Shown here one piece after another: positions 2,110 through 36,654 of a DNA stretch of 41,819 bases. The DNA is taken from contig PLHC01000059.1 in NCBI GenBank assembly GCA_003138795.1, positions 1 to 41,819 on the forward strand. Direction: 5' to 3'. Below the pieces are notes generated by a model, which made no database searches, was not told the origin of the DNA, and saw only the letters and a list, made by a program, of their open reading frames with translations. Made by a program: the position numbers and the translations under genes. Source of the stretch: Granulicella sp. GTDB lineage: Bacteria > Acidobacteriota > Terriglobia > Terriglobales > Acidobacteriaceae. How positions within the stretch are numbered: position 1 is the stretch's first letter; the number at the start of each line of letters is the position of its first letter.

Positions 2110-4299
2110 ATGATGGCAGCGGATAAGGGTCTGGGGAGGATGTGCGGCTTGGTGAAGACAGGGGCGATGGTTGGGGCGTTGGCGGTGAGTGTGAGTGGCG
2201 TGGCTGGCGCGCAGGGTGGGGCATCGAGCGATGGGTTGGCGTTTGGGCCGGCGAATCCGTTCTATGCGGCGAGTGCGCTGCCGTTCCAGGCTCCGCCGTT
2301 CGACAAGATCAAGGACGCGGATTACCAGCCGGCGATCGAGGCGGGGATTGCGCAACAGCTCGCGGAGACGGAGGCGATCGCGAATAATCCGGCGGCGCCA
2401 ACGTTTGAGAACACCCTGGTTGCGATGGAGAGGTCGGGGCAGTTGCTGACCCGCGTCACGCTGGTGTTCGAGGGGATTACGCAGGCGAATACAAATCCGA
2501 CGCTGCAGAAGGTGCAGGAGATTGTGACGCCGAAGCTGACGGCGTTGCAGGATGCGATTTATCTGAACAGCAAGCTGTTTGCGCGCGTGCAGACGCTGTA
2601 TGACGAGCGGTCGACGCTGGGATTGGATGCGGAGTCGCTGCGCTTGCTGGAGTACGACTACCAGGAGTTTGTGAAGGGCGGGGCGAAGCTCAACGACGCG
2701 GACAAGACGAAGCTGAAGAAGCTGAACGAAGAGGAGGCCGTGCTGTCGAATGCGTTTACCAACAAGCTGCTGGCAGGGACGAAGGCGGCGGCGTACAGCA
2801 CGACAGACAAGGCGACGCTGGCGGGGTTGAGCGAAGCGCAGATGGAGGCGGCTACGCTGGCGGCGAAGGAGCGTGGGCAGCAGGGCTATGTGATTCCGCT
2901 GCAGAATACGACACAGCAGCCGGATCTGACGTTCCTGAGCGATCGCGCGGCGCGGAAGGCGATGTTTGAGGACTCGTGCACGCGGACCGAGCGCGGTGGC
3001 GATAACGATACGCGGGCGACGATTGCGCGGGTGGCGCAGGTGAGGGCGGAGAAGGCGCAGTTGTTGGGTTTCCCGAACTATGCGGCGTGGACGCTGCAGG
3101 ACCAGATGGCGAAGACTCCGGAGACGGCGCTGAAGTTTATGGATGCGCTGGTGGCTCCGGCGACGGCGAAGGCTCGGGGTGAGGGTGATGAGATTCAGGC
3201 GCTGATTGGTTCACAGAAGGGCGGATTCAAGCTGCAGCCATGGGATTGGAATTTCTACTCGGAGCAGGTGCGCAAGGCGAAGTATGACCTGGATGAAGCG
3301 CAGGTGAAGCCGTACTTCGAGTTGAATCGCGTGCTGCAGGATGGGGTGTTTTATGCGGCGCACGAGCTGTATGGAATCAGCTTCAAGGAGCGCAAGGATA
3401 TTCCGGTGTATGAGCCGGATGTGCGGGTGTTCGAGGTGTTCGATGTCGATGGCAAGCCGCTGGCGCTGGCTTACTTCGACTACTTCAAGCGCGATAACAA
3501 GGATGGCGGCGCGTGGATGAGCGAGTTTGTCGGGCAGTCGAAGCTGCTGGGCAGGCTGCCGGTGATCTACAACGTGGCGAACTTCCAGAAGCCTGCTCCG
3601 GGGCAGCCAACGCTGATCAGTTTCGACGATGTGACGACGATGTTCCATGAGTTTGGGCATGGGCTGCATGGGATCTTTGCGGACACGGAGTATTCGAGCT
3701 TGTCGGGGCCGAATGTGCCGCGGGATTTTGTGGAGTTTCCGTCGCAGTTCAATGAGCACTGGGCGAGCTATCCGCAGGTGTTCAATCATTTTGCGCGGCA
3801 CTACAAGACGGGTGAGCCGATGCCCGCGGAGTTGGTGGCGAAGATCAAGAAGGCGGCGAAGTTCAACCAGGGATACAAGGTGACCGAGGCTCTGGCGGCC
3901 GCGCAGTTGGATATGCAGTGGCATACGCTTCCGGCGAATGCACCGCTGCAGGATGTCGACGTGTTTGAGAAGGAAGCGCTGGCGAAGACGAAGCTGGATC
4001 TGGCAGCGGTGCCGCCGCGGTATCGGTCGAGCTACTTTCTGCACATCTGGGCGAATGGGTATGCGGCGGGATACTACGCGTACTCGTGGAGCGAGATGCT
4101 GGATGATGACGCGTACCAGTGGTTCGAGGACCATGGCGGGCTGACGCGGGCGAATGGCGATCGGTTGCGGAAGATGGTGTTGTCGCGCGGTAATACAGAG
4201 GATTTGCAGAAGATGTATTCGGCGTGGCTGGGCGCGGAGCCGACGACGGGGCCGATGCTGAAGCACTTAGGACTGGTGGAGGATCGGTCGGAGAAGTAG
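2110..4299 (+). CDS. dcp: M3 family zinc metallopeptidase (peptidyl-dipeptidase Dcp-like), exported
   Basis: A zinc dipeptidyl carboxypeptidase/oligopeptidase of family M3. The zinc motif HEFGH is at residues 513-517, and a downstream glutamate in VEFPSQ at about 542 is the expected third ligand. The C-terminal FLHIWANGYAAGYYAYSWSEM block (about 642-662) is typical of the Dcp branch. Unlike cytoplasmic E. coli Dcp, it starts with a signal peptide (hydrophobic segment about residues 14-34, ending VAGAQ), so a periplasmic role in degrading short peptides is inferred. The length of 729 residues is normal once the signal is included. ATG codons at 2110 and 2113 are both possible starts. It converges with ggt across a palindromic repeat. 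Confidence 0.93.
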   Translation: MMAADKGLGRMCGLVKTGAMVGALAVSVSGVAGAQGGASSDGLAFGPANPFYAASALPFQAPPFDKIKDADYQPAIEAGIAQQLAETEAIANNPAAPTFENTLVAMERSGQLLTRVTLVFEGITQANTNPTLQKVQEIVTPKLTALQDAIYLNSKLFARVQTLYDERSTLGLDAESLRLLEYDYQEFVKGGAKLNDADKTKLKKLNEEEAVLSNAFTNKLLAGTKAAAYSTTDKATLAGLSEAQMEAATLAAKERGQQGYVIPLQNTTQQPDLTFLSDRAARKAMFEDSCTRTERGGDNDTRATIARVAQVRAEKAQLLGFPNYAAWTLQDQMAKTPETALKFMDALVAPATAKARGEGDEIQALIGSQKGGFKLQPWDWNFYSEQVRKAKYDLDEAQVKPYFELNRVLQDGVFYAAHELYGISFKERKDIPVYEPDVRVFEVFDVDGKPLALAYFDYFKRDNKDGGAWMSEFVGQSKLLGRLPVIYNVANFQKPAPGQPTLISFDDVTTMFHEFGHGLHGIFADTEYSSLSGPNVPRDFVEFPSQFNEHWASYPQVFNHFARHYKTGEPMPAELVAKIKKAAKFNQGYKVTEALAAAQLDMQWHTLPANAPLQDVDVFEKEALAKTKLDLAAVPPRYRSSYFLHIWANGYAAGYYAYSWSEMLDDDAYQWFEDHGGLTRANGDRLRKMVLSRGNTEDLQKMYSAWLGAEPTTGPMLKHLGLVEDRSEK

Positions 4300-6282: not shown

Positions 6283-6647
6283 TGATCACTCCAGGTGCTC
6301 CGCAGGGTGCATCCGCGTACGGGGTGTTCCTACGTTATACGAGGTGCGAAAACTTTCGAAACGAATGACGTTGTCAGGGCCAGGGGGTTGGTGGTGGCAA
6401 TGCTGGTGAACCCGGGATGAGATTCTGGCGCAGGAGAAGAACCGACCTGCAATTTGGTGCACAGCAGGCGGGATGGCCCTGAATCGTTGATCCCCGCCGC
6501 CATATTTTTTGACCATAAATTATGAGTGAGTTTCTATCATGTTATATGCAACCACCACGCGTCATGTTTGCATCCAAGTGGATGTGGATTGGTAAAGATG
6601 GTTCCAGGTCCACGAGATTTCTCTATGAGAATAAAGGAGATAGAGCG
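6283..6647. other. Divergent intergenic region ggt / Hsp20
   Basis: This stretch holds the upstream regions of ggt (minus) and the Hsp20 gene (plus). For ggt, TATAAC on the minus strand at 6339-6334 could be a -10 box, but no good -35 is seen. Towards Hsp20 it becomes AT-richer. No CIRCE element (TTAGCACTC-N9-GAGTGCTAA) and no coding sequence were found. An in-frame extension of the Hsp20 frame back to 6522 exists but lacks family similarity. Confidence 0.5.
6509..6537 (+). promoter_or_regulatory. Tentative promoter for Hsp20
   Basis: TTGACC (6509-6514), 17 bases, then TTCTAT (6532-6537). The -35 is good and the -10 is poor. The position is about 110 bases before the start codon. No alternative heat-shock promoter consensus was recognised. 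Confidence 0.3.
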
Positions 6648-7148
6648 ATGTCATTGACTAGATTTGTACCGTTTCGTGGATTGAATGATGTGGCAATACT
6701 ACAGAATCGGCTTAACTCGATCTTTCAGGATTTTGCACGGCCTGATGAAGCTACAGAGATGCTGATGGAAGGGAACTTTGTGCCGGCAGTCGATGTGTAT
6801 GAGGATGCAGAGAAGTTGGTGCTGAAGTTCGAGGTTCCGGGAATCCGGCGCGAGGATCTGGATATTCAAGTTGAAGGTCGCACGCTGACGGTGAAGGGCG
6901 AGCGTAAGTTCGAGAAGGAAGAGAAGGAAGAGAACTTCCACCGTATTGAGCGCCGCTATGGCTGCTTTGTGCGCAGCTTCACGCTGCCTGCGATGGTGAA
7001 CCCTGAGAAGGTAGAGGCGACGAGCGCGGAGGGAGTGTTGACCATCTCGATGGCGAAGAAACCAGAGGCCCAGCCGAAGCAGATCCAGGTGCAGGTTGCA
7101 CCGGCTGCGGCGGAGCATAAGCAGGTAGAGGCGAAGGCGAAGGCCTAA
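6648..7148 (+). CDS. Hsp20 / alpha-crystallin small heat-shock protein
   Basis: An ATP-independent holdase that binds unfolding proteins and passes them to disaggregases. The alpha-crystallin domain lies at about residues 44-135: FVPAVDVYEDAEKLVLKFEVPGI is followed by LTVKGERKFE, the RRYGCFVRSFTLP block and GVLTI. An Ala/Lys/Gln-rich tail follows. The start at 6648 is chosen because AAGGAGA precedes it by 7 bases and the N-terminal arm then has normal size; the protein is 166 residues. A strong terminator follows at 7206. The ClpB gene comes next, and the two products would act in sequence on aggregates. Confidence 0.93.
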   Translation: MSLTRFVPFRGLNDVAILQNRLNSIFQDFARPDEATEMLMEGNFVPAVDVYEDAEKLVLKFEVPGIRREDLDIQVEGRTLTVKGERKFEKEEKEENFHRIERRYGCFVRSFTLPAMVNPEKVEATSAEGVLTISMAKKPEAQPKQIQVQVAPAAAEHKQVEAKAKA

Positions 7149-33929: not shown

Positions 33930-34664
33930 TCATAAGTTGGGCTGGTGCGCGGCGAGGAGTTCGTCGAGGGATTCGATGGCGAGCATCTGGCGCTGGAAGA
34001 CGCGGCCGAAGTTGGTGGAGACGCTGTTCGCGGCCGTGGCCAGCGTGGGTGGAGGAGTTTGCGGAGATTCGAGTTCGAGCGAGGTAACGGCCCGGTCGGT
34101 GATGCCGCAGGGGACGATCCAGTCGAAGTCGCGGAGGTCGGTGGTAACGTTGAGCGCGAATCCATGCGATGTGACGGACTGAGAGACATGGATGCCAATG
34201 GCGGCGATCTTCTTTTCCCGGATGCTGCCACCGGCGAGTGTCCAGACGCCGGTGAGTTTGCAGATGCGCTGTGCGGGAACGCCGAAGTCCTTGCAGGTGA
34301 GGATGAGGGCCTCTTCCAAGAGGCGGACGAAGTCGACCGGCCCGAGATGCGGACCGCGTTTGCCGGGGAGGTCGCCGCGGAGGTCGAAGATGGGATAGCC
34401 GACAAGCTGGCCTGGGCCGTGATAGGTTACGTCACCACCGCGGTTGATCTCATGGACCTCGACGCCACGGCGGGCGAGGAGTTCGTCGGTGGCGAGGATA
34501 TTGGCGCGTGTTGCATTGCGACCAAGCGTGAGCACAGGCGGATGTTCGAGCAGGAGGAGTGTGTCGCCGATGACGCCAGCCTTGCGCGCTGCGACCACCT
34601 CGGCCTGGAGGCGCAGGCCTTCGGCATAGGGAATGCGGCCGAGTTGGAGGAGATGGATGTGCAC
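33930..34664 (-). CDS. lipB: Octanoyl-[acyl-carrier protein]:protein N-octanoyltransferase
   Basis: Transfers octanoate from ACP to the lipoyl domains of E2 and GcvH, the first step of lipoate assembly. NRGGDVTYHGPGQLVGYPI (about 74-92) is the family signature. The catalytic dyad is K152 (in KKIAAIGIHVSQ) and C186 (VPCGITDRAVTSL). The protein has 244 residues. It lies between the E2 gene and the remnant GIY-YIG and lpdA genes, all on the minus strand, so substrate protein and modifying enzyme are encoded side by side. Confidence 0.95.
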   Translation of the reverse strand: MHIHLLQLGRIPYAEGLRLQAEVVAARKAGVIGDTLLLLEHPPVLTLGRNATRANILATDELLARRGVEVHEINRGGDVTYHGPGQLVGYPIFDLRGDLPGKRGPHLGPVDFVRLLEEALILTCKDFGVPAQRICKLTGVWTLAGGSIREKKIAAIGIHVSQSVTSHGFALNVTTDLRDFDWIVPCGITDRAVTSLELESPQTPPPTLATAANSVSTNFGRVFQRQMLAIESLDELLAAHQPNL

Positions 34665-34718
34665 GGCGCTATTTGAGGCAATTTTAGATTCGTGACCTGA
34701 TAGGTCCGCGGCTTCTCT

Positions 34719-35183
34719 TCAAGATGTCTTAAAGCTGTTGTGCTCCGACATGAATTCCATGCTCGCGTAAAGCTCCAACAAATATTGCAAGTTTGGATCT
34801 GGAACTTCGACAAAGCGCACATCCATGTTTCGGATGCGTGCTTTCGCGTCATTGAAGGCTTTCAAGAAAATAGGGTCTCCCATCAAGGCTTTACGGCTAC
34901 CCTCCTTCTTGTAAGAGGCTTTTACTCGATCTGTCTCCCGCCTAGCTAGGAGAAAGGCGAATGAAGCCGCGTTGTGGTCGCTTGAGGGGCCGCAATGGTT
35001 CGTGTGTCTTTTCTTGAAATTCTTAGTTCTTCCAAGCTAGATGACCCGACCGCTTTCGGAGAAGCTGTAGACTCCAGGACGATGGAGTGAGCTGATCTCT
35101 GTGAGCTCTAATGGTGGCGATTCTTGGAGTTGCTTCGCCAGAATGGGCAACCTTTGAACATAGGCATTAAATTGTTTGTTCAT
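34719..35183 (-). pseudogene. GIY-YIG nuclease-family gene interrupted by one amber codon
   Basis: One continuous minus-strand frame of 155 codons from ATG at 35183 to TGA at 34719-34721, broken by a single TAG at 35037-35039. Before the stop: PGVYSFSESGRVI (GVY equals the GIY half-motif). After it: LGRTKNFKKRHTNH, so the amber codon stands exactly where the Tyr of YIG belongs (one base from TAC or TAT). Downstream the frame keeps an Arg in LGRT and a late Glu in LQYLLELYASM, positions expected for the catalytic Arg and metal-binding Glu. No other stop or frameshift is present. It starts 8 bases after lpdA ends. Recent inactivation, a sequencing error, or amber readthrough are all possible. 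Confidence 0.85.
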
Positions 35184-35190
35184 GATCGTC

Positions 35191-36654
35191 CTAAACGTTA
35201 ATGGCCATACCTTCGACGCTGGAGAAGGCATCGAGCAGGCTTTCTGAGAGCGTTGGGTGGGCGTGGATGGTGAACATCAGCTCTTCGACGGTGGCTTCGA
35301 ACTCCATCGCAACGACGCACTCGGCGATGAGTTCGGTGGCTTGGGGACCAATGATGTGGACGCCGAGGACTTCGCCATACTTCGAGTCGGAGACGACCTT
35401 CACGAAACCGTCGTGCGAGTCGACGATGGTGGCTTTGGAGTTGCCGACGAAGGGGAACTTGCCGATTTTAACCTGGTAACCCTTCTCCTTGGCTTGCGCT
35501 TCTGTAAGACCGACACTACCGATTTGAGGATCGCAGTAGGTGCAGCCAGGAACACGGTCTTTGCGGACGGGGCGAGCATACTTGCCCGCGAGCTTGCTGG
35601 CAACGACAACGCCGCACATGGCGCCGACGTGGGCGAGTTGCGGCAGGCCTGCGACGATGTCGCCGATGGCGTAGACGCCAGGCTCTGAGGTCTCCATCCA
35701 TTCGTTGACAGGGATGAAGCCGCGATCGAGGGTGATCTTTACCTTGTCGATGCCCGCATCTGCGGTGCGCGGACCGCGACCGACGGCGACGAGAACCTTC
35801 TCGGCTTCCGTGACCTGTGGGTTGCCGGCGGCATCGGTAAAACTGACCTTTGCGCCGCCCTTGATCTTTTCGATCTTCTCGACGTTGCAGCTAACGTTCA
35901 CGTCGATGCCACGCTTCTTGTAGGCGCGGGTGAGCTCTTTGGAGACCTCTTCGTCTTCGACCGGAACCATGCGCGGGAGTGCTTCGATGATGGTGACGTT
36001 GGAGCCAAAGCTCTTGAAGATAGAGGCGAACTCGACGCCGACTGCTCCAGACCCGATGACGACGAGAGACTTCGGCAGTGCGGGGAGAGAGAGGATCTCG
36101 ATGTTGGTGAGGATGGTGTCGTCTGCCTTGTAGCCGGGGAGCATGCGTGCGTCGGAGCCGGTGGCGAGCACGACCTTCTTGCCCAGCACCTGGGTTGTGC
36201 TCTGCAGCTCGGATCCCTGGCCTTTGCCCTTGTCTTCGGCGGACACGTCAACGGTGAAGACGCCGGCCTTGGCGGGGCCGGTGAGACGACCGTGGCCGTG
36301 CATAACGGTGATTTTGTTCTTCTTCATCAGGAAGTCGAGGCCCTTGGTGTGCTTCGTGATGATGTCGTTCTTGCGCTTCAGCAGGTTGTCCCAGTTGAGC
36401 GTTGGCGCGGAGACGCCATCGATACCGTAGCTGGCGGCATGTTTCAAGTGGTCCCAGATTTCGGCGGAGAAAAGCATCGCCTTGGTGGGAATGCAACCTA
36501 CGTGGAGGCAGGTGCCGCCGAGCTTGTCGGTCTTTTCGATGAGGGCGACTTTGAGCCCAAGCTGCGCAGCGCGAATGCCGCAAGTATAGCCGGCGGGGCC
36601 GCCGCCGACGATGACCAGGTCATAGATAGTTTCTGCCAAGACAGTGAGCTCCAT
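35191..36654 (-). CDS. lpdA: Dihydrolipoyl dehydrogenase (E3)
   Basis: The flavoprotein that reoxidises dihydrolipoyl groups of E2 using NAD. The FAD motif is VIVGGGPAGYTCGIRAA (15-31). The redox disulfide is C49/C54 in GGTCLHVGCIPTKAM. The NAD motif VVIGSGAVGVEFAS and the second FAD motif YAIGDIVAG follow. The catalytic His lies in HAHPTLSE near the C-terminus. At 487 residues it is standard length. It is the first gene of the minus-strand group lpdA, GIY-YIG remnant, lipB, E2, all serving lipoate-dependent dehydrogenases except the remnant. Confidence 0.96.
   Translation of the reverse strand: MELTVLAETIYDLVIVGGGPAGYTCGIRAAQLGLKVALIEKTDKLGGTCLHVGCIPTKAMLFSAEIWDHLKHAASYGIDGVSAPTLNWDNLLKRKNDIITKHTKGLDFLMKKNKITVMHGHGRLTGPAKAGVFTVDVSAEDKGKGQGSELQSTTQVLGKKVVLATGSDARMLPGYKADDTILTNIEILSLPALPKSLVVIGSGAVGVEFASIFKSFGSNVTIIEALPRMVPVEDEEVSKELTRAYKKRGIDVNVSCNVEKIEKIKGGAKVSFTDAAGNPQVTEAEKVLVAVGRGPRTADAGIDKVKITLDRGFIPVNEWMETSEPGVYAIGDIVAGLPQLAHVGAMCGVVVASKLAGKYARPVRKDRVPGCTYCDPQIGSVGLTEAQAKEKGYQVKIGKFPFVGNSKATIVDSHDGFVKVVSDSKYGEVLGVHIIGPQATELIAECVVAMEFEATVEELMFTIHAHPTLSESLLDAFSSVEGMAINV

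Follow-up and report, generated by a model that had tools for sequence, protein, structure and literature searches.

How does a reading frame that is otherwise open from end to end come to carry a stop codon at the second tyrosine of a nuclease motif? The frame in question lies in the window, that is, the whole stretch of 41,819 nucleotides of Granulicella sp. (contig PLHC01000059.1) analysed here. A sequence-only reading of this DNA had noted an amber codon at 35037-35039 in a GIY-YIG gene, with a good frame on either side of it. We found the amber codon exactly there, and its strand, absent from that reading, is the minus strand. The features on which the argument rests are listed below, A2 being the alignment of 14 family members.

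35191 to 36654, minus strand: upstream gene, lpdA-type dihydrolipoyl dehydrogenase (Pfam Pyr_redox_2 and Pyr_redox_dim)
34719 to 35183, minus strand: GIY-YIG family frame with one internal TAG (translation and relatives)
35067 to 35075, minus strand: GIY half-motif, GVY at codons 37-39, kept (A2)
35037 to 35039, minus strand: internal TAG at the YIG Tyr codon, codon 49 (codon reading; profile column on UvrC 1ycz Y29)
35007 to 35009, minus strand: R59, invariant Arg past the YIG half-motif, kept (A2; profile column on UvrC 1ycz R39)
34995 to 34997, minus strand: H63, invariant His, kept (A2)
34773 to 34775, minus strand: E137, invariant Glu of metal-ligand type, kept (A2)
34737 to 34739, minus strand: N149, near-invariant Asn, 12 residues past E137, kept (A2)
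33930 to 34664, minus strand: downstream gene, lipB-type lipoyl transferase (Pfam LplA-B_cat)

The broken frame runs over 154 codons from an ATG at 35181-35183 to a terminal TGA at 34719-34721. Codon 49 is its only interruption, with GVYSFSESGRVI before the stop and LGRTKNFKKRH after it; relatives align across it, and the frame is indeed good on both sides. The stop of the lpdA-type gene is itself a TAG, and 7 bases separate it from the ATG of the broken gene. Translation from this ATG just behind lpdA would halt after 48 residues, short of the second motif strand; lacking the Arg, His, Glu and Asn, such a peptide is predicted to have no nuclease activity. A restart of translation past the TAG was considered and rejected: the first in-frame ATG, GTG or TTG is a TTG at 34884-34886 (ORF 34719..34886), which lies behind the Arg and the His, and no nuclease would thus come from it.

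We then asked whether the frame belongs to a gene at all, using as homology query the window translation with the internal stop read as X. In a collection of genomes from 84,980 species, each represented once, exact-pattern seeding gave 67 pattern matches, one of which was a relative, an unbroken copy in MAG UBA6106 (L005) with 45% identity to the window copy across residues 1-151. Relatives were also found on 10 plasmid records, at 38-48% identity and, for nine of them, with a query coverage of 80% or more; six are annotated as "GIY-YIG nuclease family protein" and four as "hypothetical protein". One unbroken member lies on a Thioclava plasmid (NZ_CP149933.1; L015 4001-4465), whose record places the start at locus position 4244 and annotates only the last part of the gene, missing the GIY-YIG half. 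Judged from these relatives, the broken frame is a real gene and not a chance opening.

The distribution of the family is patchy. The window gene had no match in the 27 other genomes of the genus and matched in 5 of the 299 other sampled genomes of the taxonomic family. With A2 as the query, the order-level sample of 396 other genomes gave 6 with a match above 200 bits, followed in the same sample by G214 at 152 bits and by G283 at 40 bits across most of the length; the phylum sample added one further partial member (G704, 87 bits). Most of the weaker A2 matches in the order and the phylum span the GIY-YIG part of the profile, those in the phylum being mostly frames of about 600-700 codons, and we assign them provisionally to UvrC and further GIY-YIG proteins. 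A phage origin was rejected, as none of 50,697 phage records matched and none of the 16 stretches of viral contigs that fit the search pattern was confirmed as a relative.

As to the family itself, the Pfam model GIY-YIG (PF01541) matches 13 of the 14 rows of A2 at a limit of E 1 (best 1.6e-6); the exception is the window copy, for which no Pfam family was matched with X at the stop. Against UvrC models the same translation gave weak matches (E 0.012 and 0.022). The A2 profile found UvrC 1ycz in the PDB with a modest E of 0.0011, in an alignment limited to profile positions 35-69, and it puts codon 49 on UvrC Y29 and R59 on UvrC R39. The GIY half-motif is present, its Y39 being invariant in 14/14 rows. 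The YIG half-motif with its Tyr is absent from the window copy as sequenced, where TAG is followed by Leu-Gly; the family itself qualifies. The claim that the downstream Arg and Glu are retained also holds and extends to two more residues: R59, H63 and E137 are invariant and N149 is present in at least 90% of the 14 rows, and all four are encoded behind the stop in the window copy. In UvrC, E76 and N88 also stand 12 residues apart. Both AlphaFold models were weak (mean pLDDT 46.4 and 62.5), and Foldseek with the better of these two gave no match at E <= 0.001.

Which residue did the stop replace? At codon 49, 15 of the 16 distinct unbroken copies that were read have Tyr, and one, from a Bosea plasmid (L017), has His. 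It is therefore very likely that the ancestral residue was Tyr, and the sequence-only reading, which had TAG in place of Tyr, was right on the position of the stop and very probably right on the ancestor. Its label of "catalytic Tyr" is defensible, though the literature, in the parts consulted, is divided between the GIY Tyr and the YIG Tyr. In the mechanism first proposed for UvrC, the YIG Tyr (Y29) accepts the proton of the water nucleophile, according to the part consulted of a paper that also deals with UvrC N88 (PMC2630997). A review of restriction enzymes, likewise consulted in part, assigns the role of general base to the Tyr in the first motif, GIY (PMC4081073). In ANKLE1, in the portion consulted of PMC10287932, the change Y453F at the first Tyr left no detectable activity and Y486F reduced activity 3500-fold with Mn2+; we take Y486 to be the YIG Tyr. 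The consulted part of PMC1564403 held nothing on a lost Tyr, and what we saw of the literature on broken GIY-YIG genes did not name the family of the window gene. This debate hardly matters here, because the peptide ends at the stop and would thus be without the four downstream residues as well.

The kept residues had been read as a sign of very recent loss, a sequencing error or readthrough; the first of these the data allow and do not demonstrate. Among the 1377 single changes possible in the other 153 codons, 61 create a stop. By arithmetic that assumes equal rates, one unit of neutral change per site should therefore yield about 20 stops. Under the same assumption, the lack of a second stop limits neutral change since the loss to about 0.15 per site or less at 95%. 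We also counted departures at 47 near-invariant columns, in 11 rows after three near-duplicates were dropped: the window copy departs at 6, the stop included, nine other members at 0 to 6 and the Bosea copy at 16. The window copy therefore falls within the range of the other members and shows no clear sign of relaxed selection besides the stop. The length of its end branch, 1.27, was set aside as a sign of decay, since L010 and L017 have longer ones and the window copy has no near neighbour; the long branch may reflect only the missing close relatives. Finally, a single change would turn 52 of the 153 other codons into a stop, while the Tyr codon is a two-way target, and a random nonsense change would fall on codon 49 in about 3% of cases (2/63, equal rates assumed). 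That the YIG Tyr codon was the one hit is unremarkable after the fact.

With a lesion count of one, a single wrong consensus base would look identical. The gene could then be intact in the living population, the assembly base being wrong or drawn from a broken subpopulation. In favor of this are the lone lesion, the remaining motif residues, which are kept, and the draft state of the genome, in 172 contigs. Another GIY-YIG gene in this genome likewise has one lone stop. On the other side, the 31 window genes chosen are open and the genome is 94.64% complete, so such errors should not be common; moreover, a family copy in another genome (G165, see below) is decayed by several lesions, meaning that loss of such genes does happen. 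We thus hold an error or a minority variant to be rather unlikely, and infer that the stop is probably present in the DNA of the living cell.

This other gene, different from the window one, lies on contig C158 at about 23.36-23.66 kb (L003 1501-1809). Relatives in G008, G023, G010 and G004 have a Tyr (LVYFE) at the place of its one premature TAA. If the window copy is added to the three GIY-YIG Pfam matches of the genome, two genes of this set are each interrupted by a single stop.

Could a suppressor tRNA, or a recoding of TAG, carry translation past the amber codon, with a low level of full-length nuclease as the outcome? The frame is open on either side of the TAG and the active-site residues are kept, as this would need. 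However, TAG is by these tests a working stop in this genome: RF1 is present, the prfA model scoring 468.9 bits where the cut-off is 423.25, and among 31 window genes, which were chosen by eye from the ORF list with some picks and starts uncertain, the stop is TAG in 17, TGA in 8 and TAA in 6. For five of the 17, reading the TAG would add more than 60 codons before the next stop. The amber suppressor tRNA that had been proposed for checking did not appear: the genome has 37 tRNA matches in Rfam, 36 of them typed by ARAGORN, and none of these 36 has the anticodon CUA, in a set that is incomplete (no His or Ile tRNA is listed). The one untyped match (L087) fell below the Rfam gathering score when searched alone. 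Nor is an in-frame TAG kept in relatives; among the 17 other distinct copies read, the only one with TAG at this codon is decayed. Readthrough, one of the options left by the sequence-only reading, is thus very improbable.

The decayed copy is the third one of the family in G165 (L173, about 6591-6930; contig C12, about 361.6 kb), and its TAG stands at the same YIG codon. Two more copies lie on the same contig, L006, which is unbroken, and L011, which is more distant. A recurrent amber at this codon could mean that it is a selected off-state of a costly accessory nuclease, a switch that is possibly reversible or conditionally suppressed. Besides the TAG, however, the G165 copy has a frameshift and further stops, and the bases that follow the TAG differ, CTT in the window copy and TTA in the G165 copy. 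These extra lesions and differing bases indicate that the two ambers most likely arose apart and that the G165 copy is dead; the difference in bases also led us to reject one two-base event behind the stop and the following Leu in both copies. Only two broken copies are involved, and the supply of codons one change from a stop, with the Tyr codon a two-way target, argues against the switch as well. We therefore took the shared TAG as a coincidence (n=2) and give the switch hardly any credence.

The place where the gene lies is itself variable. The GC content of the broken-gene stretch is 48%, against 61% for the window. The lpd-lipB junction, whose window counterpart is 34665-35190, was readable in 26 of the 27 other genomes of the genus, and between the aligned lpd and lipB flanks we found 41-90 bases in 11 genomes and 498-2345 in 15. 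The sole insert scanned with Pfam (L089) is a DUF1348 gene; of 13 inserts read, about 7 resemble that gene by eye and the others differ. The varied lengths and differing inserts point to the lpd-lipB junction as a site of gain and loss of small genes.

Taken together, these data favor, with a probability of about 0.77, an acquired accessory GIY-YIG nuclease gene at the variable lpdA-lipB spot that was inactivated when the YIG Tyr codon became a stop. A single-domain nuclease gene of a sporadic, often plasmid-borne family would have been acquired between lpdA and lipB, and the nonsense change at its YIG Tyr codon would then have abolished function; that acquisition came first and loss later is the order we infer. 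A pseudogene is accordingly the most likely state of the locus, a consensus error is less likely and readthrough very unlikely. An inactivated gene of this kind would be one more case of the gain and loss of small mobile nucleases, of local interest only, and switched-off genes of this kind are ordinary in bacterial genomes. The locus does call for caution in annotation, as it is easy to overlook a frame of this kind or to enter it as short hypothetical proteins, Pfam being blind to the window copy. Readthrough, if true, would matter for the annotation of the genetic code; the evidence is against it.

The neighbourhoods of some relatives make a defence role of the family possible. In G205, an unbroken member starts 3 bases behind HamB, which lies behind HamA (L162 4973-5443 and 5447-9443), and this GIY-YIG gene is placed like the third gene of a Hachiman defence operon. 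On a Rhizobium plasmid, a member is one gene away from a KwaB-like gene. Among the neighbours tested with PADLOC in G196, G165 and G418, none of the 7 matched at E up to 1e-4. The members themselves gave a weak match to the PADLOC candidate model PDC-S14 in 8 of 14 cases (best 3.1e-4) and a match to UzuA in 2 of 14 (best 4.9e-5).

Among known systems, the N-terminal GIY-YIG domain of UvrC (1ycz and kin) shares with the window family the GIY-YIG motif and the Arg that follows it, but UvrC is a multi-domain repair enzyme whereas the window family is single-domain. The plasmid GIY-YIG nuclease family proteins are small and stand-alone, with the motif order of the window copy, and those of Rhizobium, Ciceribacter, Agrobacterium and Bosea share 38-43% identity with it across 99% of the query. 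In contrast to the window copy with its stop, the 8 of 10 plasmid copies that were fetched are all open at the YIG codon (7 with Tyr, the Bosea one with His). Like the window copy, R.Hpy188I is without the YIG Tyr; as described in the part of PMC2630997 consulted, however, this GIY-YIG enzyme naturally has Lys at that position and is a working restriction enzyme, whereas the window copy has a stop codon there.
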